Source: Clostridia bacterium (GTDB taxonomy: Bacteria; Bacillota; Clostridia; Christensenellales; Aristaeellaceae). From it: a stretch of DNA of 64,000 nucleotides. Made by a program: the position numbers and the translations under genes. Positions 24,067 through 63,769 of this stretch are shown in pieces. How positions within the stretch are numbered: position 1 is the stretch's first letter; each line of letters opens with the position of its first letter. The DNA lies in contig JAFSOC010000014.1 of assembly GCA_017447185.1 (NCBI GenBank), positions 62,001 through 126,000 on the forward strand, given 5' to 3'. A model generated the notes under the pieces. That model saw only the letters and a list, made by a program, of their open reading frames with translations, was not told the origin of the DNA and did not search any database.

Positions 24067-25782
24067 TCAGTCGGACTGGAGTGCGTCGTAACCTTCCTCG
24101 CCCGTCCGGACGCGGATCACGTTCTCCACATCCGTCACGAAGATCTTGCCGTCGCCAATGTGGCCGGTATGCAGCACGCTCCGTGCCGTATCGATCACCT
24201 CGCGCACCGGCACCTTGCTTACCACGATATCCACCTGCACCTTCGGCAGCAGCGTTACCTCCACAGGGGTGCCGCGGTAATACTCCGGCTTGCCCTTCTG
24301 TGCGCCGTAACCCATGACGTTCGTAACCGTCATGCCTGTGATGCCGATCCGGTTCATCGCCGTCTTCAGGCTTTCCAGGCTGGCCGGGCGGCAGATGATC
24401 TGCACCCTGGTGTAAACCGGTTCGTCCGGAGCCTTCTCCTTCGCCTTCCGCGGCGCAGCAGGTTCCGCGGTATCCGCTGCCACAGCTGTTGCCGCGGCCG
24501 CCGGTGCTTCCCCGTCTTCGGGCATTTCTTCCGGCAGCATCGCAATGCCGGCATAAGCGGTGGGCAGGCCATGTTCAGAGCGGTCCAGACCCATGATCTC
24601 GTCCGCTTTGTCCGCCCGCAGGCCAATGGTCTTCTTGATCAGGAAGAACACGATCGTGATCACCACAGCCGTCCAGCCGATGGTGGCCAGCACACCCAGG
24701 CTCTGCACGCCCAGGAATTTGAATCCGCCGCCGTAGAACACGCCCTTCATGGTGGAACGTCCGGTAGCGAAGAAGCCGGTCAGGATGGTTCCCAGCGCGC
24801 CGCACACGCCGTGTACGGAGATCGCGCCGACCGGGTCGTCAATCTTCACAACCTTGTCAAAGAAGCTGACCGACACCACAACCGCGAGGCCGCAGACGAT
24901 ACCAATGATTGCTGCGCCAAAGGGGTTCACGGCGTCGCACCCGGCGGTGATGCCCACCAGGCCGGCCAGCGCCGCGTTGAAGGTCATGGACACATCCGGC
25001 TTGCCGTACCGCATCCAGGTGAAGCCCATGCAGACCAGTGTGGCCAGTGCCGCGGCCAGGTTCGTGTTAAAGAACACCAGGCTGGCGGAATCGATCAGTT
25101 CGTCGCTGTCCATGCCCACGGTGGAGGCGCCATTGAATCCGAACCAGCAGAACCAGAGGATGAACACGCCCAGGGCGGCGATGCTCAGGTTGTGGCCCAG
25201 GATCGCCCGGGGTTTTCCGTCCTTGCCGTACTTGCCGACGCGCGGTCCGAGCATCTTTGCGCCGACCAGTGCGCACACACCGCCGACCATGTGGACCGCC
25301 GTGGATCCGGCAAAATCATGGAATCCCATTTCCGCCAGGAAGCCGCCGCCCCAGATCCAGTGGCCGCTCACCGGGTAGATAAACAGGGAGATCGCAGCCG
25401 AGTAGATGCAGTAGGCGGAGAATTTCGTCCGCTCGGCCATGGCGCCGGAAACGATGGTCGCCGAAGTCGCGCAGAAGACTGTCTGGAAAACCGCGAAAGC
25501 CCACAGCGGAACACCCGCCGGCAGCACCGCATCATATTCCTTCATGATGAAGGGATCAATCCATCCGAAAACCGCTGTGCCCGTTCCGAACATCAGGCCG
25601 AAACCGATCAGCCAGTACAGCGGAGTTCCGATGCAGAAGTCCATCAGGTTCTTCATCAGGATGTTGCCCGTATTCTTGGCCCGGGTAAATCCGGCTTCAC
25701 ACATTGCGAAGCCCGCCTGCATAAAGAAGACCAGCGCTGCGCCCAGCAGCACCCAGATTGTGTTTGCGGGAGAGTACGTCAT
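24067..25782 (-). CDS. amt: Ammonium transporter fused to a PII signalling domain (Amt-GlnK)
   Basis: The first 415 or so residues are a complete Amt/Rh ammonium channel with 11 helices: FMQAGFAMCEAGFTRAKN, VFQTVFCATSATIVSGAMAERTKF, the conserved His pair in STAVHMVGG and ISVHGVCGALG. An Ala/Pro/Glu-rich linker (about 420-460) joins it to a C-terminal PII domain: YTRVQIICRPASLESLKTAM, a T-loop with EYYRGTPVEV (the second Tyr aligning with the uridylylated Tyr51), the B-loop TGHIGDGKIFV, and VIRVRTGEEGYDAL. Normally GlnK is separate and plugs Amt when nitrogen is plentiful; here the regulator is tethered. ATG 25782 after GGAAG is preferred to an upstream GTG. The gene has its own promoter and leader terminator. 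Confidence 0.95.
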   Translation of the reverse strand: MTYSPANTIWVLLGAALVFFMQAGFAMCEAGFTRAKNTGNILMKNLMDFCIGTPLYWLIGFGLMFGTGTAVFGWIDPFIMKEYDAVLPAGVPLWAFAVFQTVFCATSATIVSGAMAERTKFSAYCIYSAAISLFIYPVSGHWIWGGGFLAEMGFHDFAGSTAVHMVGGVCALVGAKMLGPRVGKYGKDGKPRAILGHNLSIAALGVFILWFCWFGFNGASTVGMDSDELIDSASLVFFNTNLAAALATLVCMGFTWMRYGKPDVSMTFNAALAGLVGITAGCDAVNPFGAAIIGIVCGLAVVVSVSFFDKVVKIDDPVGAISVHGVCGALGTILTGFFATGRSTMKGVFYGGGFKFLGVQSLGVLATIGWTAVVITIVFFLIKKTIGLRADKADEIMGLDRSEHGLPTAYAGIAMLPEEMPEDGEAPAAAATAVAADTAEPAAPRKAKEKAPDEPVYTRVQIICRPASLESLKTAMNRIGITGMTVTNVMGYGAQKGKPEYYRGTPVEVTLLPKVQVDIVVSKVPVREVIDTARSVLHTGHIGDGKIFVTDVENVIRVRTGEEGYDALQSD

Positions 25783-25815
25783 GTTTCTCACTTCCGTTTC
25801 CGCGTATTATCCAAC

Positions 25816-25854
25816 AAAAAAAGGCGCCGGGTGCATCTCGCACACCCTTGCGCC
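25816..25854 (-). terminator. Leader terminator/attenuator upstream of amt
   Basis: On the minus strand GGCGC (25854-25850) pairs with the GCGCC end of the 3' arm, enclosing a GGGTG...CACCC stem, and is followed by seven Ts (25822-25816). It lies between the amt promoter and RBS, about 10-15 nt after the predicted transcript start. The alternative hairpin CGCA-AGGGTG-TGCG (25852-25839) uses part of the 5' arm and would prevent termination. Confidence 0.7.
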
Positions 25855-25870
25855 TTGCTGGATTGATGGG

Positions 25871-25899
25871 ATTGTATACTGTATTCAATCCCCTGTCAA
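25871..25899 (-). promoter_or_regulatory. Sigma-A promoter of amt
   Basis: Minus-strand TTGACA (25899-25894), a 17-base spacer, and TACAAT (25876-25871). Confidence 0.75.
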
Positions 25900-25931
25900 G
25901 GGGGAAAACATCCGAAAAACAATCGGATTTT

Positions 25932-26657
25932 TTACGCCTTATCACCCATCTGTTTTTCCAGGCGTCCCATGATTTCCTGGTAAGCGTCTTCCACGCCGCC
26001 CAGATCCCGGCGGAAGCGGTCCTTGTCCAGCTTCTCCCCAGTCTTGCTGTCCCACAGGCGGCAGGTATCCGGGCTGATTTCGTCCGCCAGGACGATCTTC
26101 CCGTCGGAAAGGCGGCCGAATTCCAGCTTGAAGTCCACCAGTGTGACGCCGCAGGACTTCCAGAATTCCTTCAGCGCTTCATTGACCTTGAAGGAGTATT
26201 CCTTGATGGTGTCAATTTCCCCGCGGGTCGCCAGTTTCAGCGCCAGCGCGTGGTATTCATTGATCAGCGGATCGCCCAGTTCATCGTTCTTATACGAGAA
26301 CTCGATGGTCGGCGCGTCGAAAACGATGCCTTCCTCGACCCCGTAATGCTTCGCGAAGGATCCGGCCGAAATATTGCGGATAATCACTTCCAGCGGTACA
26401 ATCTGCACTTTCCGCACCAGGGTATCCCGTTCGCTGAGCTCTTCCACAAAGTGCGTGGGAACGCCCTTTGTCTCCAGCATCCGCATCAGGGCATTGCTCA
26501 TCCGGTTATTGATGACGCCCTTTCCCTGGATGGTTCCCTTTTTGAGGCCGTTGAATGCCGTCGCGTCGTCCTTGTAGGAAACGATCAGCAGTTCCGGATC
26601 CTCTGTTGCGAAGACTTTCTTGGCTTTGCCTTCGTAAAGCTGTTCACCCTTGTTCAT
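25932..26657 (-). CDS. purC: Phosphoribosylaminoimidazole-succinocarboxamide synthase
   Basis: Joins CAIR and aspartate with ATP to give SAICAR in purine synthesis. The 241-residue protein opens with LYEGKAKKVFAT, the ATP-binding signature, then SYKDDATAFNGLKKG, then EVIIRNISAGSFAKHYG, LVDFKLEFGR and ADEISPDTCRLWD, the family signatures. It starts 20 bases after gltD with GGAAGGGG-type spacing, so it is probably the last gene of the glnA-gltBD operon. That ties a purine step to nitrogen status. Confidence 0.96.
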   Translation of the reverse strand: MNKGEQLYEGKAKKVFATEDPELLIVSYKDDATAFNGLKKGTIQGKGVINNRMSNALMRMLETKGVPTHFVEELSERDTLVRKVQIVPLEVIIRNISAGSFAKHYGVEEGIVFDAPTIEFSYKNDELGDPLINEYHALALKLATRGEIDTIKEYSFKVNEALKEFWKSCGVTLVDFKLEFGRLSDGKIVLADEISPDTCRLWDSKTGEKLDKDRFRRDLGGVEDAYQEIMGRLEKQMGDKA

Positions 26658-26677
26658 GGTAAATCATCCCCTTCCGG

Positions 26678-28090
26678 TTAATGATGATTCGACACGAAAA
26701 GGTGAATCTCCTGCGCGGCAGCCCGGCCATCCGCCAAAGCCCGTACCACAAGGCTCTGGCCCGTGCGCATGTCGCCGGCGCTGAAAAATTTTCCGCTCAG
26801 GTGATGGGAAAGGTTTTCCGGCAGCAGCCTTCCCCGGCCGTCCGCGGACAGGCCGAAGAGCTGCAGCGTCTTTTCCTCGCAGCCGACAAAGCCGGCGGCG
26901 ATCAGCATCAGCTCACACTTCAGTGTCTGCTCCGAACCCGGCACCGGCTCCATCTTTCCTTCCGGCGTCCTGTGCAGCCGGACAGTTTCCACCGCCGTAA
27001 TCCGGTTCTTCTCATCCGTAAGGATCGACTTGACCGTTGTCTCATAGATCCGTGGGTCGCTTCCCTGCACCGCCTGTGCTTCCTGCTGGCCGTAATCAGT
27101 CCGCAGCGTCCGGGGCCATTCCGGCCAGGGATTCCCGGCGGTCCGGCTTTCCGGCGGCGCCGGCATCATTTCCAGCTGGGCGACAGAAGCGCAGCCCTGT
27201 CGCAGCACGGTGCCCACGCAGTCATTGCCGGTATCCCCGCCGCCGACCACCAGCACATGCTTCCCTTTCGCCAGGCAGGAATCTTCCCCGTTCAGCAGTT
27301 TTTTTGTTGTTTCCGTCAGGAAATCCACCGCGAAGCGGACGCCTTCCGCGTCCATATGCTCCACATTCAGGGACCGGGGCTTCCGGGATCCGCCGCACAG
27401 CACGACAGCGTCAAATTCCTTCAGTTCCTCCGGGTCCGCTTCCCGGTTCAAAAGAAAGGTCACGCCTTCCGCTTCCATCAGCCGGATCCGCCGCTCCACG
27501 ATTTCCTTGGGCAGTTTCATATTCGGAATGCCGTACATCAGCAGTCCGCCGGGTTTTTCCGCCCGCTCAATCACGGTTACCCGGTGTCCCATCCGGTTCA
27601 GCAGGTCTGCTGCCGCCAGGCCCGAAGGGCCGCTGCCGACCACAGCAATATGCTTTCCGGTCCGCTCCGCGGGCAGCCGCGGGCGCATCCAGCCCTGTTC
27701 AAATCCTTTTTCAATCAGATACAGCTCGTTGTCCCGGTTCGTGACCCCGTCATCCGCCAGGTTGCAGGCTTTTTCGCACAGCGCAGGGCAGATCCTTCCC
27801 GTGAATTCCGGGAAAGGCGCTGTTTCCAGCAGGCGTTCCAGCGCTTCCTTTTCCAGTCCGTTGCACAACAGGTCGTTCCATTCCGGAATCAGGTTGTGCA
27901 GCGGGCATCCGAAGGAGGACTGACAGAAGGGCACGCCGCAGTTCATGCAGCGGGAGGCCTGGCAGGTCCGCTCCTCCGCCGGCTGCTGGATATGCAGGTC
28001 CTCATAGTCCGTAAGGCGTTCCTTCACGTCCCGGAACGGATTTTCTTTCCGGGCGTATTCCAGGAAACCGGTTGCTTTTCCCATATTCAC
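26678..28090 (-). CDS. gltD: Glutamate synthase small subunit (NADPH, FAD)
   Basis: Passes electrons from NAD(P)H through FAD and iron-sulfur clusters to the large subunit for glutamate synthesis. N-terminal cysteines (CQASRCMNCGVPFCQSSFGCPLHNLIPEWNDL, split here) ligate two 4Fe-4S clusters. The FAD-binding GSGPSGLAAADLL lies near residue 150, the NADPH-binding GGGDTGNDC near 287, and AAGFVGCE near the C-terminus. At 470 residues it is normal for the family. A GTG at 28090 overlaps the gltB stop (GTGA); an ATG six bases later is equally possible. The overlap implies coupled translation of the two subunits. Confidence 0.95.
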   Translation of the reverse strand: MNMGKATGFLEYARKENPFRDVKERLTDYEDLHIQQPAEERTCQASRCMNCGVPFCQSSFGCPLHNLIPEWNDLLCNGLEKEALERLLETAPFPEFTGRICPALCEKACNLADDGVTNRDNELYLIEKGFEQGWMRPRLPAERTGKHIAVVGSGPSGLAAADLLNRMGHRVTVIERAEKPGGLLMYGIPNMKLPKEIVERRIRLMEAEGVTFLLNREADPEELKEFDAVVLCGGSRKPRSLNVEHMDAEGVRFAVDFLTETTKKLLNGEDSCLAKGKHVLVVGGGDTGNDCVGTVLRQGCASVAQLEMMPAPPESRTAGNPWPEWPRTLRTDYGQQEAQAVQGSDPRIYETTVKSILTDEKNRITAVETVRLHRTPEGKMEPVPGSEQTLKCELMLIAAGFVGCEEKTLQLFGLSADGRGRLLPENLSHHLSGKFFSAGDMRTGQSLVVRALADGRAAAQEIHLFVSNHH

Positions 28091-31000
28091 GCCCCCTTAT
28101 TCTGCAGGTACGCCAGGTATTCGTCGGAAATGACGGCCCTGAATTTCGGCAGGTACTGCGCAAAGGCAGCCAGGATTTCCCCGGCCTTTTTCGAGCCGGT
28201 TGCCTTTGCGTGCATGGTCAGCAGCCTCTCCAGGTCCGCCGCCTCTTCCGGCCGGACCGGATACATGCGCACATGACCCGTGTTCAGGTGATCCTTCAGC
28301 GTATCGTTTTCATCCAGTACCCATGCGATGCCGCCGCTCATACCGGCGGCGAAGTTGTCGCCCACCGGACCCAGCACGGCCACCCGTCCGCCTGTCATGT
28401 ATTCGCAGCCGTGGTCACCCACGCCCTCTGCCACAGCCCACGCGCCGGAGTTCCGCACCGCGAAGCGTTCGCCCGCCATGCCGGCCACAAAGGCGTATCC
28501 GCCGGTGGCGCCATACAGGGCTACGTTTCCAATCAGGGTATCCTCCTGCCGCCAGATGCTGTCCGCCGGCGGGCAGACCGCCAGCGTTCCGCCGGATAGT
28601 CCCTTGCCCAGGTAGTCATTGGCCACGCCGTAGAGGGTGATCGCCTGTCCCGCGGGCAGGAACGCACCGAAGGACTGGCCGCCGCATCCCAGGGCCTGGA
28701 TATTCTTTTCTCCACGGAGCATTGTGCCAAAGGCACGGTCCGTGGTCATCAGATGCACATGGTTCTGGAACAGGCGCGCGTCCGTCCGTTCCGCCAGGCG
28801 GAAGTCATGCTTCGCTTCCGGCCGGAAATGCGTGTTCCGGGCAAAGCCGGTCAGGTCGCTCAGGTCCAAGGCGGCGTCCGGTTTCACCTTCAGCAGGTCG
28901 CTGCGGCCCACCAGTTCGCCCACCGTGCGGGCACCCAGCTTCGCCATGATCTCCCGCAGCTGCTGCGCGATAAAGATCATGAAGCGTTCCACATATTCCG
29001 GTTTCCCGGCAAACTTTTTCCGCAGTTCAGGATTCTGTGTGGCAATGCCAAAGGGGCAGGTGCCCAGGTGGCATACCCGCATCATCCGGCAGCCCATGGT
29101 GACCAGCGGCGCCGTGGCAAAGCCGAACTCTTCCGCGCCCAGCAGCAGGGCCACCGCCACATCGTGTCCCGTCATCAGTTTTCCGTCTGTTTCCAGCGTC
29201 ACTGTCTGGCGCAGCCGGTTACGGCACAGCACCTGGTGAGCCTCCGCCAGGCCGATTTCCCAGGGTAGTCCCGCATGATGCACGCTGCTCAGCGGTACCG
29301 CGCCGGTTCCGCCTTCCCCGCCGGAGATCAGGATGCCGCCGGCGCCGGCTTTCGCCACGCCGCTGGCAATCGTTCCCACGCCGCTGGAAGAAACCAGCTT
29401 GACCGTAATCTTCGCCTGTTCATTGGCGCACTGCAGGTCATAGATCAGTTCCGCCAGATCCTCGATGGAATAGATATCGTGATGCGGCGGCGGTGAAATC
29501 AGGGAAATTCCGGGGGTCGAGCAGCGCGTTTTCGCGACGCTTTCCGTCACCTTCGCACCTGGCAGGTGTCCGCCTTCACCGGGCTTGGCGCCCTGCGCCA
29601 TCTTGATCTGGATTTCCTTCGCGGACAGCAGGTATTCCCGGGTCACTCCGAAGCGGCCGGAAGCCACTTGCTTGATGGCCGAGTTCAGGTCCGTGCCGAA
29701 GCGCTCCGGCAGTTCCCCGCCCTCGCCGCTGTTCGATCTTCCGCCCAGGTGGTTCATAGCCCGTGCCATGCATTCATGCGCTTCCTGGGAGATGGAGCCG
29801 TAGCTCATCGCGCCTGTACGGAAACGCTTCACAATCGCTTCCACCGGTTCCACTTCGGAAAGCGGTATCTCCCGGCAGGCTTCATACCGGAAATCCAGCA
29901 TGGAGCGGATAGTCCGGGGACCTTCCTTCTCGATGCCGGCAGCATATTTGTCAAACAGTTCCCGGCTGTCCGTCCATACAGCCTCCTGCAGCAGGTGGAT
30001 AGTCTCCGGGGAGTACAGGTGTTCCTCCGCCTGCGGACCTGTCCGCAGCCGATGTACACCCACGGCCGGCAGTCCCCTGCCTTCCGTCCTGCAGAAAGCT
30101 TCCCCGTGATGGAAACGGATGTCCGCTTCCACCCGGTTCAGGTCGGTTCCTCCCAGGGCACAGGGGGTATTGGTGAAATACTTTTCCACGAAAGGCCGAT
30201 CCAGGCCTACCGCTTCAAACAGCTGCGCACTCTGGTATGCCTGCAGGGTGGAGACACCCATCTTGGAGGCAATCTTCAGCACACCGGCGGTCAGCGCCCT
30301 GTCATAACGGGCCAGAGCCTCTTCGGGTTTCAGGCTCACGGCGCCTTCCCGGCACAATTCGCGCACCCAGGCATGGGCCAGGTACGGATTGACGGCCCGC
30401 GCGCCGAAAGCCACCAGCAATGCAAGCTGGTGCACGTCCCGGGGTTCCCCGCTTTCCAGCACCACGGAAACCGCCGTCCGCTTCTTGATCCGGATCAGAT
30501 GCTGCTCCAGCGCGGAAACCGCCAGCAGCGACGGAATGGCCAGATGATCCGCGTCCACGCCCCGGTCGGACAGGATCAGCACATTGACCCGATCCCGGCA
30601 GGCCCGGTCGCAGGCTGCGAACAGGTCCGCCAGCGCGTCCCGCAGGGTTCCGTCCTTCGGGTACAGCAGGGATACCGTCCGGACCTTGAAGGAGGGATGA
30701 TCCAGGTTCCGGATCCGCCGGAATTCCTCTTCCGCCAGCACCGGCGTGGGCAGTTCCAGCACCGTGCAGTTTTCGGGATCGTGGGAAAGCAGGTTCCCGT
30801 CATCTCCGATATACACGGAGCAGTCCGTCTTGATTTCTTCCCGCAGCGCGTCAATCGGCGGGTTGGTCACCTGGGCAAAGCGCTGCTTGAAGTAGTCAAA
30901 CAGGGAGGGATGCGTTTTGGACAGGGCCGCCAACGGCTCGTCCGCGCCCATGGACACGATCGGTTCTGTTCCGTTCTCCGCCATCGGCCGCAGGATATCC

Positions 31001-32415
31001 TGCACATCTTCCCATGTATAATGAAAGGCTTTGGCCAGCTGTTTCAGCCGGTCTTCATCCACGGTCTCCGTTTCTTCCGGAGCACCCGGCAGGTCCCCTA
31101 GCCGGATCAGGTTCTGCATCCATTCCGTATAGGGGAACGCATGGGCATAGCGGGTTTTCACCTCGCTGCTTTCGGACAGCCGTCCGGTCTCCAGGTCCGC
31201 CTCCAGCACATCGCCGGATTTCAGCTTCCACCGGCGGATAATATGCGCGTTTTCCTCGAACAGGACGCCGGCTTCCGACGAAAGAATCAGCCGGTGATCG
31301 TCCGTCAGCGCGCAGCGCAGCGGCCGCAATCCGTTCCGGTCCAGGGAAGCGCAGATCTTCTCCCCATCCGTATAGAGCACCGCCGCCGGCCCGTCCCAAG
31401 GTTCCATCATCGTAGCATAATAACGGTACAGATCCCGCCAGGGCGTCTCCCGCTCCCGGATCCCCTGCCAGGGTTCCGGCATCAGGATCATGCCGGCCAG
31501 GGACAGCGGAATGCCGTTCATCGTCAGGAACTCCAGCGTGTTGTCCAGCATCTGGCTGTCGCTGCCACCTTCCGCCACCACCGGAAGCACCCGCTGCATC
31601 TCCTCGCCCATCACGGCAGAGCGCATGGTTTCCTCCCGGGCCTTCATCCGGTCGTGGTTGCCGCGGATCGTATTGATTTCCCCGTTGTGAAGCAGCATCC
31701 GCTGGGGATGTGCCTTGCTCCAGGAGGGGAAAGTATTGGTGGAGAAACGGGAATGGACCATGGCCATCCGGCTCACATACCGCGCGTCCTGCAGGTCGTC
31801 ATAGAAGGACCGCAGCTGGTTTACCAGCATCATGCCCTTATAAACAATCGTACGGCAGGAAAGCGAACAGATATAGGTATCCGTATCCTGCTTTTCAAAA
31901 ACGCGGCGCAGCACATACAGCCGCCGGTCAAAATCCTGGCCGGCGCTGACATTCCCGGGACGGCGCAGGAAACACTGGCGGATCCGCGGCATCGTGCTGC
32001 GGGCGCCGGCGCCCAGCTGCGCCGGATGGCAGGGAACATTCCGCCATCCCAGGATTTCGATCCGCTCGGAGGCAGCCAGCTGTTCGAAAATCCGGCAGGT
32101 GTTTTCGGCGCTGACTTCATCTTCCGGCAAAAAAAACATCCCCACGCCGTAGTCTCCCGGCCGGCCAAGCTGGATTCCTTCCTCCAGGGCCCAGGCGGAA
32201 AAAAGGCTGTGGGGCAGTTCTGTCAGTATTCCGACCCCGTCGCCGGTCGTGCCAAGCGCGTCGCTCCCGGCCCGGTGGGCCAGGCGCTCCACAATGGAAA
32301 GCGCCTGGTCGACCGTCCGGTGTGTGGCGCGGCCGTTCAGGTCCGCAACCGCACCGACGCCGCAGTTTTCATGTTCCAGTTCCTCATGATAAAGGGGATA
32401 TCTGCGGTCCTGCAT
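28087..32415 (-). CDS. gltB: Glutamate synthase large subunit
   Basis: Makes two glutamates from glutamine and 2-oxoglutarate. The 1442-residue enzyme has a class II amidotransferase domain whose nucleophile Cys is in HENCGVGAVADL near residue 18, so a short propeptide must be removed. Central and FMN-binding barrel domains follow: RFRTGAMSYGSISQEAH, LPGAKV, SGGEGGTGA, and the 3Fe-4S cysteine set CRMMRVCHLGTC. A C-terminal beta-helix (GxxxG-rich, GATGGYAFVAGMAGERFAVRNSG in part) closes the protein. It starts three bases after the ANTAR gene stop and overlaps gltD, so the three are one transcript. Confidence 0.96.
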   Translation of the reverse strand: MQDRRYPLYHEELEHENCGVGAVADLNGRATHRTVDQALSIVERLAHRAGSDALGTTGDGVGILTELPHSLFSAWALEEGIQLGRPGDYGVGMFFLPEDEVSAENTCRIFEQLAASERIEILGWRNVPCHPAQLGAGARSTMPRIRQCFLRRPGNVSAGQDFDRRLYVLRRVFEKQDTDTYICSLSCRTIVYKGMMLVNQLRSFYDDLQDARYVSRMAMVHSRFSTNTFPSWSKAHPQRMLLHNGEINTIRGNHDRMKAREETMRSAVMGEEMQRVLPVVAEGGSDSQMLDNTLEFLTMNGIPLSLAGMILMPEPWQGIRERETPWRDLYRYYATMMEPWDGPAAVLYTDGEKICASLDRNGLRPLRCALTDDHRLILSSEAGVLFEENAHIIRRWKLKSGDVLEADLETGRLSESSEVKTRYAHAFPYTEWMQNLIRLGDLPGAPEETETVDEDRLKQLAKAFHYTWEDVQDILRPMAENGTEPIVSMGADEPLAALSKTHPSLFDYFKQRFAQVTNPPIDALREEIKTDCSVYIGDDGNLLSHDPENCTVLELPTPVLAEEEFRRIRNLDHPSFKVRTVSLLYPKDGTLRDALADLFAACDRACRDRVNVLILSDRGVDADHLAIPSLLAVSALEQHLIRIKKRTAVSVVLESGEPRDVHQLALLVAFGARAVNPYLAHAWVRELCREGAVSLKPEEALARYDRALTAGVLKIASKMGVSTLQAYQSAQLFEAVGLDRPFVEKYFTNTPCALGGTDLNRVEADIRFHHGEAFCRTEGRGLPAVGVHRLRTGPQAEEHLYSPETIHLLQEAVWTDSRELFDKYAAGIEKEGPRTIRSMLDFRYEACREIPLSEVEPVEAIVKRFRTGAMSYGSISQEAHECMARAMNHLGGRSNSGEGGELPERFGTDLNSAIKQVASGRFGVTREYLLSAKEIQIKMAQGAKPGEGGHLPGAKVTESVAKTRCSTPGISLISPPPHHDIYSIEDLAELIYDLQCANEQAKITVKLVSSSGVGTIASGVAKAGAGGILISGGEGGTGAVPLSSVHHAGLPWEIGLAEAHQVLCRNRLRQTVTLETDGKLMTGHDVAVALLLGAEEFGFATAPLVTMGCRMMRVCHLGTCPFGIATQNPELRKKFAGKPEYVERFMIFIAQQLREIMAKLGARTVGELVGRSDLLKVKPDAALDLSDLTGFARNTHFRPEAKHDFRLAERTDARLFQNHVHLMTTDRAFGTMLRGEKNIQALGCGGQSFGAFLPAGQAITLYGVANDYLGKGLSGGTLAVCPPADSIWRQEDTLIGNVALYGATGGYAFVAGMAGERFAVRNSGAWAVAEGVGDHGCEYMTGGRVAVLGPVGDNFAAGMSGGIAWVLDENDTLKDHLNTGHVRMYPVRPEEAADLERLLTMHAKATGSKKAGEILAAFAQYLPKFRAVISDEYLAYLQNKGA

Positions 32416-32418
32416 TTT

Positions 32419-32955
32419 TCATCCCTGCTTTTTACTGTTTTGTTGCACAATCCTGGCAGCATAATCCGCCATCTTCGTACTGTGATCCATGGCCTGCTTC
32501 TGCAGCAGGTGATGCGCCTCCGGTTCTGTAATATGCAGCTGTTTCATCAGGATTTCCTTTGCCTGCTCCACAATCTGCCTTTCCGCTCCCATCCGTTTCG
32601 GCATTTTCATCCGGTGCAGCTGGTTCAGCATTTCCAGCGCGCCGAGAATCGCCTGTCCGCTCGTAGGCAGCGCCAGCCGGAAAATCTCGGAGGATTCGCA
32701 GCTCTCGAGAACTGCCGGCCTGGCAATCAGCAGGATCTGCACCCTGTCTCCGTAATCCCATACCAGATCATCCGGACTGCAGTCCGGCAGCTGGCCCAGG
32801 AAAATGACAATACTGTCTTCACTTTCCGTGAGGGCACGCCGCAGGCTGCTTCCGGAGGAACAGCACCGGTACACGGAAGAACCGGAGGAGGCCAGCAGCC
32901 TGGTCATCTGATCCCGGTTCGTTTCCGAAGCGCCGGCAATGATCATTCGAGCCAC
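32419..32955 (-). CDS. ANTAR-domain RNA-binding regulator with degenerate receiver
   Basis: A predicted transcription antiterminator. Residues 1-115 resemble a CheY-like receiver, but the position expected to carry the phosphoacceptor Asp reads SIVIFLGQLPD, with Gly where Asp belongs, so it is probably not phosphorylated. The C-terminal ANTAR domain is clear: ERQIVEQAKEILMKQL, HITEPEAHHLLQKQAM, DYAARIV, the three-helix RNA-binding fold that recognises hairpin loops in leader RNAs. The gene lies between glnA and gltB on the same transcript. A role in sensing nitrogen and antiterminating the glnA, asnB and amt leaders is inferred from context. Confidence 0.88.
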   Translation of the reverse strand: MARMIIAGASETNRDQMTRLLASSGSSVYRCCSSGSSLRRALTESEDSIVIFLGQLPDCSPDDLVWDYGDRVQILLIARPAVLESCESSEIFRLALPTSGQAILGALEMLNQLHRMKMPKRMGAERQIVEQAKEILMKQLHITEPEAHHLLQKQAMDHSTKMADYAARIVQQNSKKQG

Positions 32956-32997
32956 TCGTCTTCCTCCTCTCCGTTACAGATTTGGACGCAATCCGGA

Positions 32998-34329
32998 TTA
33001 ATACATCACAATGTAGCGATCAATCTCCCAGCTGCTCACATGGGTGCGGTACGCATCCCATTCCTTTTCCTTGCCTTCCACATACTGGCCCATGACATGC
33101 TCACCCAGCGCGGCGCAGATCACGTCGTCCGCCTTCAGGCAGTCCACAGCTTCCTTCAGTGTGCCGGGCAGGGAACGGATGCCCTTGGCTTCGCGGGTCA
33201 CCGCGTCCATCGCGAAGATGTTCTCGGTGATTTCTTCCGGAGGCGTGAGGCCCTTCTTAATGCCATCCAGACCGGCAGCCAGGCAGACCGCCATGTTCAG
33301 GTACGGGTTGCAGCTGGGATCCGGGCAGCGCAGTTCAACGCGCGTTCCCATACCGCGGGATGCGGGAATACGGATGAGCGCAGAACGGTTGCTGGCACTC
33401 CAGGCCAGGTAGCAGGGCGCTTCATAGCCGGGAACCAGGCGCTTGTAGCTGTTTACCAGCGGGTTGGTTATCGCCGCCATGCCGCGAATGTGCTCCAGGA
33501 TGCCGGCGATGAAGGAATAGGCTTCCTTGCTCAGTCCGCGCTTGTCGGAAGGATCGGCAAACACATTCTTGCCGTCCTTGAACAGGCTCATATTGGTATG
33601 CATGCCGCTGCCGTTGATTCCGAAAACGGGCTTGGGCATGAAGGTCGCATGCAGGCCGTTCTTCTGGGCCAGCGTTTTCACTGCCAGTTTGAAGGTCATG
33701 ATGTTGTCCGCTGCCTTCAGCGCATCGGCATACTTGAAGTCGATCTCGTGCTGGCCGGCTGCCACTTCATGATGGCTGGCTTCAATTTCAAAGCCCATCT
33801 GCTCCAGTGCCAGGCAGATCTCACGCCGGGTGCTTTCGCCGTGATCCAGCGGTCCAAGGTCGAAGTATCCGGCTTCGTCCGAGGTCGCGGTGGTGGGCTT
33901 GCCCTCTTCATCCGTCTGGAAGAGGAAGAATTCCATTTCCGGACCGACGTTGAAGGAATATCCCATCTCCGCCGCTTCCGCCAGCACCTTCTTCAGCACG
34001 CCGCGGGGATCGCCGGCAAAGGGCGTTCCGTCCGGATTGTATACGTCGCAGATCAGCCGGGCGACTTTCCCGTGCTGCGGACGCCAGGGCAGAATCGTGA
34101 AGGTGTCCAGGTCGGGCCGCAGGTACTGGTCGCTCTCATTGATGCGGACGAAGCCCTCGATGGAACTGCCGTCGATCATGATCTCATTGTTGACCGCCTT
34201 TTCAATCTGGCTGGCAGTGATGGCCACATTCTTCAGCTGACCGAAAATATCGGTGAACTGCATGCGGATAAATTCCACATCACCTTCCCGGACCATGCGG
34301 ATGATATCTTCCTTCGTGAATCTGCTCAT
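32998..34329 (-). CDS. glnA: Glutamine synthetase type I-alpha
   Basis: Makes glutamine from glutamate, ammonia and ATP. The 443-residue length fits the GSI-alpha group of Firmicutes, which lacks the adenylylation site. Diagnostic blocks are [56 protein letters not shown] with metal and glutamate ligands, [18 protein letters not shown], and [13 protein letters not shown] follows GGAGG. It is the promoter-proximal gene of the glnA-ANTAR-gltB-gltD-purC operon and has a terminator-containing leader, so expression should depend on antitermination. Confidence 0.97.
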
Positions 34330-34349
34330 AACAACAACCTCCTCAAATC

Positions 34350-34392
34350 AAAAACAGGCAAGTTCAGCCATCGGATCATGGCTCCCTTGCCT
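34350..34392 (-). terminator. Leader terminator/attenuator upstream of glnA
   Basis: On the minus strand AGGCAAG (34392-34386) pairs with CTTGCCT (34362-34356), enclosing AGCCAT-GATCCG-ATGGCT, and is followed by GTTTTT. It lies between promoter and RBS. The alternative hairpin GGC-AAGGGA-GCC (34391-34380) overlaps the 5' arm and is incompatible with the terminator. Confidence 0.7.
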
Positions 34393-34403
34393 TGTATGCC
34401 GGG

Positions 34404-34432
34404 ATCATACCATCCCGGTTTTCGCCTGTCAA
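34404..34432 (-). promoter_or_regulatory. Sigma-A promoter of the glnA operon
   Basis: Minus-strand TTGACA (34432-34427), a 17-base spacer, and TATGAT (34409-34404). It is divergent from the asnB promoter about 65 bases away. Confidence 0.8.
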
Positions 34433-34496
34433 GCGTTTTGGACCGGCTGAAATTGTTTTCCCTTTGTTTTCCCCTTCCCGCTTTTCCGTGATCTCC

Positions 34497-34525
34497 TTGA
34501 CAAGCCTTTCCCGGGATGATACCAT
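34497..34525 (+). promoter_or_regulatory. Sigma-A promoter of asnB-guaA
   Basis: TTGACA (34497-34502), a 17-base spacer, and TACCAT (34520-34525). The spacer shares CCGGGATG with the glnA promoter spacer. Confidence 0.7.
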
Positions 34526-34538
34526 ACCTGCCATCAAG

Positions 34539-34574
34539 ACAAGGGAGTCCTGAAATGGGGCTTCCTGTTTTTTT
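34539..34574 (+). terminator. Leader terminator/attenuator upstream of asnB
   Basis: ACAAGGGAG (34539-34547) pairs with GCTTCCTGT (34560-34568), with one bulged A and a G-T pair, followed by seven Ts. Two structures compete with it: GAC-AAGGGA-GTC (34538-34549), and an 11-bp perfect stem CTGAAATGGGG (34550-34560) with CCCCATTTCAG (34582-34592) that reaches to within a few bases of the RBS. Confidence 0.65.
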
Positions 34575-34609
34575 GTTCCTTCCCCATTTCAGTTCAGGAG
34601 GCGATCCGT

Positions 34610-36190
34610 ATGTGTTCCATCTTCGGTCTGACCAGTTCCAGAGTTCCCCGGGATCTGATTGAAACCTGCTTCAACCGCACGATCTCGCGGGGACCGGACA
34701 TGAGCCGGCTGGAAGAGATCCCCGACGGGATTCTCGGTTTCCATCGCCTGGCCATCATGGGCCTGAATGAAAAGGGCATGCAGCCCTTCCATCTCGGGAA
34801 GGACGCGGTCGTCTGCAATGGTGAACTGTACGGTTTCCGTCCCCTGCGGGAGCGGCTCATGGAGACCTATGAGCTGCAGGGGGAATCCGACTGTGAAATT
34901 CTTCTTCCCCTGTATCATGAATACGGAGTGGAAATGTTCAAAACCCTGGACGCCGAGTTTGCCCTGATCCTCTATGACGGTGAGCAGAACAAAGTCATCG
35001 CCGCCCGGGATCCCATCGGTATCCGGCCTCTGTATTACGGCCGCCTGGAAGACGGAGAATGGGCCTTCGCCAGCGAACCGAAGAACCTGATGGGCCTGTG
35101 CGAAACCATCCTGCCCTTCCCGCCCGGCCATTACTGGGTCGACGGGAAATTCATCCCCTATGCCGATCCCTCCCATGTGGACCGGTTTATTATGGAAAAC
35201 GAGGACGTGGTCTGCAGGGAACTGAACCGCCTGCTGACCGAGGGCGTGAAAAAGCGGCTGGACGCGGATGCCCCCATCGGCTTCCTGCTCTCCGGCGGCC
35301 TGGATTCCTCCCTCGTGTGCGCCATCGCCCAGAAACTGCTCCCCCATCCGATCCGAACCTTCGCCATCGGCATGGATATTGACGCCATCGACCTGAAATA
35401 CGCCCGCATCGTCGCGGATTATATCGGTTCGGAGCATACTGAGGTCATCATCTCCGAAAAGGACGTGCTGGAGGCCCTGCCCACCGTCGTGGAGCTGCTG
35501 GGCACCTGGGATATCACAACCATCCGCGCCTCCATCGGCATGTATCTCGTCTGCAAATGGATCCATGAAAACACCGACGTACGCGTTCTGCTCACCGGCG
35601 AAATTTCCGACGAACTCTTCGGATATAAATACACGGACTTTGCCCCCTCTGCCGCCGCCTTCCAGGAAGAAGCGGAAAAGCGGATCCGGGAGCTGCATGT
35701 TTACGACGTGCTGCGGGCGGACCGCTGCATTTCCGTCAACTCCCTGGAAGCACGCGTGCCCTTCGGTGACCTGGCCTTCGTGCACCATGCCATGAAGATT
35801 GACCCGGAGCTGAAGATGAACAACCACAACATGGGCAAATACCTGATCCGCAAAGCCTTCGCGGAGGACAAAATCCTGCCGGATGAAATTCTCTGGCGGC
35901 AGAAGGCTGCTTTCTCCGACGCCGTGGGTCACTCCATGGTCAACGACCTGAAGGCCCTGGCGGAGAGAACCTATACCGACAAGGAATTTGAGGAAAAAGC
36001 AGCGAAATATGATTACTGCCCTCCCTTCACCAAGGAGAGCCTGCTGTACCGTGAACTGTTCGAACAGTATTATCCCGGCCAGGCCCGCATGATTCCGGAC
36101 TACTGGATGCCCAACAGAACCTGGCCCGGCTGCAATGTGGACGATCCTTCCGCCCGGGTGCTTTCGAACTACGGGGACAGCGGAAAATAA
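34610..36190 (+). CDS. asnB: Asparagine synthetase B (glutamine-hydrolysing)
   Basis: Makes asparagine from aspartate, ATP and glutamine. The class II amidotransferase domain starts with nucleophile Cys2 (MCSIFGLT) and shows GFHRLAIMG and VVCNGELYG. The synthetase domain contains the pyrophosphate loop [14 protein letters not shown] near residue 228, then [17 protein letters not shown] and EARVPFGD. Its 526 residues are within the family range. ATG follows CAGGAGG. It is followed 19 bases later by guaA, so two glutamine-using amidotransferases share one attenuated transcript divergent from glnA. Confidence 0.96.
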
Positions 36191-61876: not shown

Positions 61877-63769
61877 ATGAACAATAGCTATGATGGCCGG
61901 AAAGTCATAGCCGTTTGCGCATCATGGGAAGATGTGGAAAACCTGAATCTCATGCTGAACCGGCTGATCGAGGCAACGGAAGTACACGGGTTCCTCCCGA
62001 TGTTCGTGGCCTTTGACCGCAACGGAGTTGAAGCGCGGGGGGAAGAAAGCATCCGTGAATTCATGTGTGCTTTTGATATTCCGCATCTCGCCGGCTTCCT
62101 GCTGTTCGGGGAGATGATCCGGTCCGACACCATCAACCAGCATATCATTCAGCTTGCACAGGAAAAGAAACTGCCCGTCTTCATGCTGGAACGCGAGTAT
62201 GAAGGCTGCATCAACCTGGCTTTCTCCTATCTGGAAGGTTTTGAAAAGGTCGTCCGGCACCTGGTGAAAGAGCACAGCTGCTCGGATATCGTCATGGTTG
62301 CCGGAATCAAGGGCAATTCCTTCTCTGATGAACGGATCGACCTGTGTCGCCGGATCCTGGAGGAGCATGGCCATACCCTCCCCCAGGAAAAAGTCATCTA
62401 CGGTGAATACTGGGACGAACCGACTTACAAGGCACTGAACCAGTATTTCTCTTCCGGCGGCAACCTGCCGCAGGCCTTCCTTTGCGCCAACGACGCCATG
62501 GCCATCGCCGTGTGCATTTATCTGTCCGAGAGAAACATCCGTGTTCCGGAACAGGTCCGGGTCGCCGGATTTGACGGCATCCTGCCGGGAGAAAGCCATG
62601 TGCCCGCCATCACCACCGCGCGGCCGGACTTTGCCTATATGTTCGGCAAGATGCTGGAGAGGATCAAAGTCTGGTCCCCGGAGGACACGGGAAAAACGGA
62701 AAAATGGCCGATCCCCTTTGAGTTTATCCGCCGGGAATCCTGCGGATGCGAGCAGAGCAATGCCTTCCTCACCACGAAAAAAAGCGGAGAACTGAAGATC
62801 GACAATCTGCTGTATACACGCCACATCCGTGCGATGGGCAATTTCATCCGCAAAACCCTGAGCATGAATTCCCAGGCCAGGCTGTCTGAACAGCTGAATG
62901 CCCTTTTCTCCGGCTGGCCGAACCCGTTCTACTTTGCCGCCGTGCTCGATGAAAAAGACCGGGGCATCGCCAGGAGTGTGCTCCACAGCCGCCACGGCCT
63001 GTTCCTTCCAGGTTCCACCTTCCGCTGGAAGGAAACGCCCATCACCGACGAGGCATCTGTCCGGAATGACCCGAAGATCCGGATCCTGATGGTGCAGCTG
63101 CTGCAGAATGAGGAGGAAACCATGGGATATCTGGTTTCCGGCCTGCAGGCCTGGACACTGCGGGAACAGGACCGTTTCGAGGAGGAGGCCCTGTTCCTTT
63201 CCGCGGCTTTCAATGCCGTCCTCAGTAACCGGCGTCTGGCGGAAGCAAACAGGGCCATTCTCCGGATGGCGGAACACGATTACCTGACCGGGCTGTACAA
63301 CCGCCGGGGATTCCTGGGAGAGCTGGAGCGCAGGCTGCAGCAGCCGGAAGCCCAGGGCCAGACGCTGACACTCTTCTCCCTGGACATGGACGGGCTGAAA
63401 TCCGTCAACGATATCTACGGGCACTCCGAAGGAGACTATGCCATCCAGTGCCTGGCCAAAGCGCTGGAGCAGCTGTTCGGGGACAACGGCATCTGCGCCC
63501 GGTACGGCGGCGATGAATTCGCTTTCGCGATTCTGGGCGAAGCACTTTCGCCTTCCGACGTGGATGAAATCCGGACAAAGCTGGAAACAGCAGCCCGGAA
63601 AATCTGCGGCCCGAAGGAGTACCTGATTTCCGCCAGCCTCGGTTCGTCTTCCTGCCTGATCGACGGCCCTGTATCCCTGGACCAGATCCTGGCTGAATCG
63701 GACCGCGCGCTTTATTCGGACAAGCGTATCCGCAAAGCGAGGAAAGAAAACCATGAGAATAGCAAATAA
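61877..63769 (+). CDS. LacI-type sugar-sensor domain fused to GGDEF diguanylate cyclase
   Basis: A 630-residue cytosolic signalling protein. Residues 1-280 form a periplasmic-binding-protein-like ligand domain of the LacI type (GRKVIAVCASWEDVENL, AGFLLFGEMI, DIVMVAGIKGNSFSDERIDLCRRIL, AFLCANDAMAIAVCIYLSE, VRVAGFDGILPG), but with neither a helix-turn-helix nor a signal peptide. A GAF-like or coiled linker spans about 300-455, and the GGDEF domain follows: HDYLTGLYNRRGF, DMDGLKSVNDIYGHSEGDY and the intact YGGDEF. It probably makes cyclic di-GMP in response to an intracellular sugar-like ligand. ATG 61877 is preferred over an upstream TTG. Confidence 0.87.
   Translation: MNNSYDGRKVIAVCASWEDVENLNLMLNRLIEATEVHGFLPMFVAFDRNGVEARGEESIREFMCAFDIPHLAGFLLFGEMIRSDTINQHIIQLAQEKKLPVFMLEREYEGCINLAFSYLEGFEKVVRHLVKEHSCSDIVMVAGIKGNSFSDERIDLCRRILEEHGHTLPQEKVIYGEYWDEPTYKALNQYFSSGGNLPQAFLCANDAMAIAVCIYLSERNIRVPEQVRVAGFDGILPGESHVPAITTARPDFAYMFGKMLERIKVWSPEDTGKTEKWPIPFEFIRRESCGCEQSNAFLTTKKSGELKIDNLLYTRHIRAMGNFIRKTLSMNSQARLSEQLNALFSGWPNPFYFAAVLDEKDRGIARSVLHSRHGLFLPGSTFRWKETPITDEASVRNDPKIRILMVQLLQNEEETMGYLVSGLQAWTLREQDRFEEEALFLSAAFNAVLSNRRLAEANRAILRMAEHDYLTGLYNRRGFLGELERRLQQPEAQGQTLTLFSLDMDGLKSVNDIYGHSEGDYAIQCLAKALEQLFGDNGICARYGGDEFAFAILGEALSPSDVDEIRTKLETAARKICGPKEYLISASLGSSSCLIDGPVSLDQILAESDRALYSDKRIRKARKENHENSK

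Follow-up and report, generated by a model that had tools for sequence, protein, structure and literature searches.

This locus raises the question of how a set of genes for ammonium and glutamine metabolism might be controlled through one small RNA hairpin per transcript. The window, meaning the whole stretch of DNA analysed, comprises 64,000 nucleotides (positions 62,001–126,000 of contig JAFSOC010000014.1, assembly GCA_017447185.1) from a Clostridia bacterium of the family Aristaeellaceae, with a 2.9 Mb draft genome that is 88.66% complete. Three of its genes, glnA, asnB and amt, each have a leader in which a promoter is followed by a hairpin with a loop of six bases (hexaloop) and by an intrinsic terminator that overlaps the hairpin. 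A protein with an ANTAR domain is encoded directly 3' of glnA. We put at about 0.8 the probability that, as the sequences suggest, these leaders belong to an ANTAR antitermination regulon in which each transcript carries one hexaloop close to its 5' end.

In the proposed mechanism, the three leaders would be transcription attenuators. RNA polymerase would start ca. 1–3 bases (glnA, asnB) or 11 bases (amt) before the hexaloop hairpin. This hairpin would use the same bases as the 5' arm of the terminator, and the RNA alone would fold into the terminator. An active ANTAR protein would grip the single hexaloop, with A at loop position 1 and G at position 4 (A1, G4), as the RNA leaves the polymerase; the weak hairpin, once gripped, would stay closed, the terminator would be blocked and the gene would be read. 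Sequence comparison gives the promoter, the hexaloop with A1 and G4, the terminator, the overlap, the covariation, the co-occurrence with ANTAR genes and the absence of a first hairpin; binding by the protein, read-through (activation) as the outcome, and the signal are what we infer.

Promoter, hexaloop and terminator in three leaders

The three best sigma-70-like sites between 25700 and 36300 (11, 11 and 10 of 12 bases) are the promoters of glnA, asnB and amt (Table 1), though the total of five such sites there is not above that in shuffled sequence (3.4, sd 2.2). If transcription is taken to start 7 bases past the −10 box, the first loop base is +10 in glnA and asnB and +16 in amt. The minimum free energy (MFE) fold of each leader is the terminator, a hairpin with a T-tract (−21.2, −17.7 and −22.2 kcal/mol for the transcript pieces of glnA, asnB and amt). 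This order of promoter and terminator at all three genes agrees with what was proposed when the window was first read without database searches (the sequence-only reading). The hexaloop hairpin alone is weak, at −4.8 (glnA), −3.5 (asnB) and −5.0 kcal/mol (amt). A simple terminator scan scored, among the three leaders, asnB alone, and its total of five was below that of shuffles (9.1). Rfam gave no match at the curated threshold in the window.

The hairpins lie where they had been placed, at GGC[AAGGGA]GCC (34391–34380, − strand), GAC[AAGGGA]GTC (34538–34549, + strand) and CGCA[AGGGTG]TGCG (25852–25839, − strand). The glnA and asnB stems had been given only 3 bp, which understates them: pairing resumes past one mismatch, as CA(A.A)GGC[AAGGGA]GCC(A)TG and TCA(A.C)GAC[AAGGGA]GTC(C)TGA. 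Between the two possible registers of the amt hairpin the choice is not settled by the sequences. The first, GCGC[AAGGGT]GTGC, keeps 3 bp in 21 of 21 distinct relatives and A1 in 17; the second, CGCA[AGGGTG]TGCG, keeps A1 and G4 in 21 of 21 and 3 bp in 17.

Table 1. Features of the glnA, asnB and amt loci in the window
Feature	Position	Strand	Basis
glnA promoter: TTGACA 34432–34427, spacer 17, TATGAT 34409–34404; predicted start ca. 34397	34404–34432	−	
glnA hexaloop hairpin CA(A)GGC[AAGGGA]GCC(A)TG, loop 34388–34383	34377–34394	−	
glnA leader intrinsic terminator, mutually exclusive with hexaloop hairpin	34350–34392	−	MFE
asnB promoter: TTGACA, spacer 17, TACCAT; predicted start ca. 34532–34533	34497–34525	+	
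asnB hexaloop hairpin TCA(A)GAC[AAGGGA]GTC(C)TGA, loop 34541–34546	34534–34553	+	
asnB leader terminator overlapping hexaloop hairpin	34536–34575	+	fold; terminator scan
amt promoter: TTGACA, spacer 17, TACAAT; predicted start ca. 25864	25871–25899	−	
amt hexaloop hairpin, GCGC[AAGGGT]GTGC (25853–25840) or CGCA[AGGGTG]TGCG (25852–25839)	25839–25853	−	
amt leader terminator overlapping hexaloop hairpin	25814–25856	−	MFE
glnA, glutamine synthetase	32998–34329	−	Pfam
ANTAR protein with pseudo-receiver domain	32419–32955	−	Pfam ANTAR 5.7e-18
gltB + gltD, 3' of glnA and ANTAR gene, same strand	26678–32415	−	Pfam; order in relatives
asnB, asparagine synthetase, divergent from glnA	34610–36190	+	Pfam
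amt, ammonium transporter with fused C-terminal P-II domain	24067–25782	−	Pfam; NCBIfam
AWACA-N6-AWACA area upstream of −35 boxes	glnA/asnB 34433–34496; amt 25900–25921		

Conservation, covariation and number of hairpins

The bare octamer CAAGGGWG was rejected as evidence, being no commoner in the genome (144 matches) than its reversed control (187). The pattern GRCAAGGGNGYC was also set aside on its own, with 18 matches and 19 reversed; only those at glnA, asnB and purF have a promoter and a terminator, and the remainder are by eye coding or unrelated, one resembling RNase P RNA. When promoter, G-N-C stem and T-tract are combined, the genome yields glnA and asnB, plus purF with a shorter promoter gap, and the reversed pattern yields none. 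The amt leader was matched only by a looser stem pattern, with 6 matches in the genome (3 of them these leaders) and 5 for the reversed control. Of the 45 genomes of the genus, 37 combine a −35 box, a G-N-C/G-N-C stem around CAAGGGNG and a nearby run of T, and 9 match the reversed pattern (table count). A loose promoter pattern run over 150 relatives often gave similar forward and reversed counts, and was therefore used only for finding candidates.

A genome collection scanned with the ANTAR alignment gave eighty named loci, from Clostridia metagenome genomes whose titles in many cases point to rumen or gut, and 69 of these yielded the region upstream of glnA; the genomes with G handles overlap with these records, and counts are not additive. 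The glnA leaders were gathered by gene homology and recognised by the loop patterns C[AG]AGG[GA]NG or C[AG]AGGGNG with T[TG]GAC upstream, so loop positions 2–5 and the −35 box are conditioned for most rows. An A1/G4 hexaloop is present in 68 of the 69 leaders, 65 by script and 3 by eye. The script matched 66, including a spurious, coding-like one (L251); those found by eye are L207, L250 (closing pair broken) and L254 (loop AAAGGG). The earlier claim that the loops carry A1 and G4 is therefore borne out for glnA, and depends on the register for amt.

Twenty further regions contain divergent ANTARs (24–39% identity). The design is found in 16 of them; it precedes glnA, except in L256, where it precedes the ANTAR gene itself. 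Eleven of the 16 leaders meet a rule of three continuous pairs, and five (L258, L259, L260, L263 and L267) have by eye a mismatch among the three pairs nearest the loop. Loop sequences among the 16 include AAAGGT, AAAGGC, AATGGG and AAGGAC. The divergent rows were extracted after their promoters had been picked out by eye; a filter removed L259 and L268, both of which carry the hexaloop, from the set of distinct hairpins.

That set has 71 distinct glnA hairpins, with A1, A2 and G4 in all 71, G3 in 66, G5 in 69 and position 6 free. Stem cells are paired in 85.7%, compared to 78.2% (sd 1.0) when shuffled, a value reached by none of 500 shuffles, and the covariation score is 0.310, compared to 0.188 (sd 0.016). 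When the pairing is slid, 27–47% of cells are paired and the score is at most 0.096. Five of six pairs have changed on both sides and 13 pair types occur, values that 98 and 74 of the 500 shuffles reach. Three of the five covariation measures exceed all shuffles, here and in the two wider sets below. The other two, both-side changes and pair types, are near their ceiling with six pairs, yet are least inflated by kinship; kinship also inflates the comparison with shuffles, and the slid control is biased towards a structure that was itself derived from these sequences. On this comparison a stem of at least 3 bp in the target RNA is kept by covariation. At the fourth pair counted from the loop, most family hairpins have two mismatched purines (A.G, A.A, G.G), which may keep the hairpin weaker than the terminator.

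At the level of the order, a looser pattern matched 109 of 297 genomes and its reversed control 15 (own count), with many of the matches coding-like. Twenty regions were picked from leader-like matches. Eight of these were picked since the place of the ANTAR gene was already known, so an ANTAR gene in 8 of 20 is no independent rate. As read from protein starts, the gene that follows a site is glnN or a split glutamate synthase gene in 17 of the 20. The stems around the loop AAAGGC include ACAGC/GCTGT, AATGAGC/GTTCATT, AACGAAC/GTTCGTT and AAAGGC/GTCTTT. The 27 distinct hairpins are 86.4% paired (67.6% shuffled) with a score of 0.589 (0.260 shuffled; at most 0.212 slid), and both-side changes and pair types are reached by 379 and 392 shuffles.

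At the level of the class, a strict AAAGGC pattern was found in 76 of 391 genomes, compared to 5 of 391 reversed (own count). Of 30 loci, 21 precede amt, glnN, glutamate synthase, asnA, asnB or guaA (from protein starts; two checked with Pfam). The 32 hairpins are 81.8% paired (63.8% shuffled) with a score of 0.572 (0.255 shuffled; at most 0.151 slid); 283 and 330 shuffles reach the both-side changes and pair types. Membership of the order set (A3) and of the class set (A4) required the loop pattern, a promoter and a closing C-G pair, and that of the class set also purines against pyrimidines at the next two pairs; because the closing pairs are part of the selection, only the outer pairs are free tests. 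The order set keeps one probable chance site (L298 +), and G091, G119 and G129 are common to both sets. Rfam, run on 8 loci, gave nothing at threshold and two sub-threshold, unrelated matches. The hairpin is in sum conserved upstream of nitrogen genes in the family and, with other stems, in further families of the order and class, with stem covariation, and it was on such conservation that the sequence-only reading had staked its claim.

Of 127 distinct leaders, 126 have an MFE fold that is incompatible with the hexaloop hairpin and that takes in one or both of the hairpin's arms. Both arms are also terminator arms in 108 of 127 window-family leaders, as they would be if a terminator or a DNA site alone were conserved and the hexaloop were a by-product of the 5' arm, and a separate conserved DNA repeat also lies upstream of the promoters. 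Such an explanation is nevertheless very improbable, in that the covariation of the stem around the loop is not required by a terminator and is seen where the left arm is outside it. The left arm lies outside the predicted terminator in 22 of 29 order leaders, so the covariation of the arms speaks for the hexaloop hairpin itself.

Each leader appears to hold one hairpin, as had been noted, and not the classical pair. Between the −10 box and the loop lie 14–16 bases in nearly all distinct glnA leaders (57 of 59) and in every asnB leader (12 of 12); in amt leaders the usual distance is 21 bases (16 of 21). Among 111 family leaders, preselected for T[TG]GAC upstream, 109 have a promoter that matches at 10 or more of 12 bases, which leaves no room for an earlier hairpin, and no first A1/G4 hexaloop was found upstream inside the predicted transcript in any of the 111. 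A classical two-hairpin motif, with its first hairpin in a longer transcript that starts upstream, is accordingly hard to fit to these promoters. An A1/G4 hexaloop with at least 3 bp does occur in the upstream 70 bases of 24 of 122 leaders, but shuffled sequence gives a similar rate (15%) and no one position recurs in more than 7; we regard this alternative as highly unlikely.

A second hexaloop downstream was found in 16 of 102 leaders, compared to 12% shuffled, and any second hexaloop between start and T-tract in 23 of 111, compared to 14%; 17 of these are the other amt register. Two linked hexaloops occur in none of 29 order and none of 33 class leaders, sets that were chosen by motif with a pattern that limited the promoter distance and that therefore give no single-hairpin frequency. 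For the family the single-hairpin finding holds, because the named glnA leaders were collected by gene. Since the dual-hairpin feature was looked for and is absent, the leaders are not members of the dual-hairpin RNA family as defined; they probably work like a dual-hairpin ANTAR target RNA.

The purine-rich loop could also be read as the ribosome-binding site of a leader peptide, with translation controlling the terminator. AAGGG is Shine-Dalgarno-like, and 22 of 59 distinct glnA leaders have an ATG after it (49 have any of ATG, GTG or TTG). Among amt leaders just 1 of 21 has the ATG (any start codon, 5), and among asnB leaders 4 of 12 (any start codon, 6). A leader peptide was rejected as not common across the genes, and this explanation is barely credible.

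The ANTAR protein and the extent of the proposed regulon

The ANTAR domain (PF03861) of the window protein scores 64.9 bits, compared to a curated cut-off of 27.3, and is the sole ANTAR match across the draft genome; NCBIfam has no family for the protein at E 0.01. As the sequence-only reading stated, its gene directly follows glnA, and it does so in 40 of 40 fetched relatives, which are the surroundings of the closest ANTAR orthologs. Some contigs are cut; gltB is present in 38 (not L075 and L080) and gltD in 32. The four genes glnA, ANTAR, gltB and gltD are probably one operon. asnB is on the opposite strand in 39 of 40, not always adjacent.

The predicted structure of the protein (pLDDT 88.7, pTM 0.64) shows a receiver-like domain and a long helix, with more helices at the ANTAR end. 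Its best matches in the PDB by Foldseek are EutV of Enterococcus faecalis bound to RNA (6ww6) and then EutV alone (6wsh). EutV is switched by phosphorylation at Asp54; in the window protein the aligned residue 53 is Leu. Among 23 orthologs this residue is Leu, Ile, Met, Ala, Gly or Trp, and never Asp; the adjacent Gly54 is invariant. The acidic pair of EutV aligns with residues 8 and 9, which are also not acidic. By reading, the acceptor position is Asn in 7 of 8 order and 8 of 11 class proteins inspected, and Asp in none. A receiver with a phospho-acceptor Asp, as in a EutV-type response regulator, is therefore not what these proteins carry, and since the receiver-like domain lacks the acceptor, phosphorylation is unlikely as the signal.

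The leader and the ANTAR gene occur together. Among 120 family genomes, 31 have an ANTAR match below 1e-45 and 29 of these carry the strict leader, as do 7 of the other 89 (Fisher 6e-19, kinship uncorrected); the reversed pattern is found in 6 of 120 (own count). Of the seven, G062 and G206 have a more distant ANTAR, and the matches in G175 and G177 look coding. One of the misses, G038, has the hexaloop and no run of four T. In genera with a close ANTAR, the ANTAR search found nothing in 14 members, of which 12 also lack the strict leader (exceptions G210 and G175; own tally). At the class level no ANTAR gene was found within 1.5 kb of the site at any of 30 loci; in larger regions around class sites (20 regions, up to 19.5 kb each), 11 had one no further than 8 kb from a site.

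Several observations weigh against ANTAR antitermination through a single hexaloop. There is no hexaloop at 4 of the 20 divergent-ANTAR loci (L269, L270, L271 and L273), and 4 of 21 amt hairpins lack A1 when read in one of the two registers. Both-side changes and pair types are not above shuffles in any of the three covariation sets. Within the family, an ANTAR protein is encoded in the same genome as the leaders except in G082, G162 and G210 (68% complete), which have leader-like sites and no ANTAR found, and G165 has a close ANTAR without the strict motif. The whole-chain TM-score to EutV is ca. 0.5 at 12.5 Å rmsd, which means that the domains match EutV and their arrangement does not. In the alignment, with contact numbering from PMC8934654, K143 and K147 of EutV are Gln in the window protein and R168 is an invariant Gln; the contact M172 is kept as an invariant Met. 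In the EutV/EutW system of E. faecalis (eut genes), both hexaloops are required in vivo (PMC3369931, PMC8934654).

The sites in genomes without ANTAR and the partial conservation of the EutV contacts would also suit a different RNA-binding protein, or an attenuator that needs no protein, with the ANTAR gene a mere neighbour. This is unlikely, as the bases kept in the loop are the A1 and G4 of the ANTAR signature (PMC3369931), and as the ANTAR gene is adjacent to glnA, is absent together with the leader within genera, and is nearby in those 11 class regions. The single-hexaloop ANTAR regulon for nitrogen genes that the sequence-only reading proposed is thus supported by conservation, covariation and nearby ANTAR genes, all of them lines of sequence evidence.

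The scope of the regulon appears wider than that reading had it. Glutamine and ammonium genes are included as expected; in this genome the purF leader is a fourth member (the gene has a Pfam glutamine amidotransferase domain and was named from its sequence). In relatives the leader is also found before gdhA, glmS, glnN (type III glutamine synthetase), pyrG, purF, a sodium:alanine-type symporter gene, an aminotransferase gene and amt copies elsewhere, with Pfam assignments for representatives. Most of these genes make, carry or use ammonium and glutamine. The glmS of the window was rejected as a further member, its leader having no hairpin. An unexpected member is L275 (G004), where the gene behind the hexaloop leader encodes a PPDK N-terminal domain.

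A more general reading is that nitrogen control across the class Clostridia uses ANTARs with pseudo-receiver domains, which would not be switched by phosphorylation, would sense glutamine or ammonium via a ligand or partner, and would act on one hexaloop at the 5' end. We hold this tentatively, at slightly less than an even chance.

Some further features of these loci are of interest. A direct repeat, AWACA-N6-AWACA on either strand, lies upstream of the promoters in 47 of 68 glnA, 10 of 10 asnB and 7 of 20 amt distinct regions, compared to a shuffled rate of 0.1–0.2%. It is probably the site of a DNA-binding nitrogen regulator, and glnA and asnB share the repeat region in part of the genus. 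The P-II domain fused to the C-terminus of Amt is a possible nitrogen sensor within the same regulon. In genome G017, an ANTAR C-terminal fragment (a 45-residue frame) lies beside a second leader (C27, 15161–15261 and 14990–15109), with a full ANTAR copy elsewhere. In other genera (L073–L078, L093, L095, L099, L100) the hexaloop before asnB is replaced by a leader with GGTGGCACCACGGAG that is T-box-like by eye; Rfam gave no match at the curated threshold in L073, L100 and L231. In L067, L069 and L071 a short open frame (e.g. MPAYLACLANPED...) was seen by eye between the hexaloop terminator and asnB.

Comparison with known antitermination systems

AmiR of Pseudomonas aeruginosa and NasR of Klebsiella likewise have an ANTAR domain, matched here by profile, and AmiR also works without phosphorylation. 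NitR, a regulator linked to glnA, has reportedly been studied in solvent-forming Clostridium; no such paper was found in the literature search. The leaders of AmiR and NasR are dual-hairpin seeds in PMC3369931, and a single-hairpin leader is not described in the available part of that paper. The glnA and Downstream-peptide RNAs are riboswitch candidates of cyanobacteria (PMC2864571); no Rfam family reached threshold here.

The gene theme is the same as in the survey of Ramesh 2012 and in an actinobacterial survey (PMC3369931, PMC8164766); targets in PMC3369931 include P-II, ammonium transporters, and glutamine and glutamate synthases. Because both searches required two stem-loops, a single-hairpin class would have been passed over in them. 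No description of single-hexaloop ANTAR antitermination was recognised in the open-licence literature, most subscription papers being outside the search.

The closest likeness is to EutV/EutW, which shares the ANTAR protein, an A1/G4 hexaloop that excludes the terminator, and a nitrogen theme. EutV/EutW requires two hexaloops and a linker; the leaders described here have one, near the transcript end. In the EutV-RNA structure the dimer contacts one hexaloop at a time, and the same paper takes one hexaloop as the new minimal motif for binding and calls for more study of how single hexaloops function (PMC8934654, 2022). The 127 distinct one-hexaloop leaders, with a promoter position that leaves no room for an earlier one, are candidate natural cases, and they sit at core ammonium and glutamine genes of rumen and gut Clostridia. 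If they work as proposed, models in which a first hairpin is needed to recruit the protein must widen, and searches for two-hairpin ANTAR targets have missed a large set. Should the class-wide reading also be true, the two-hairpin rule for ANTAR antitermination would describe one branch only.

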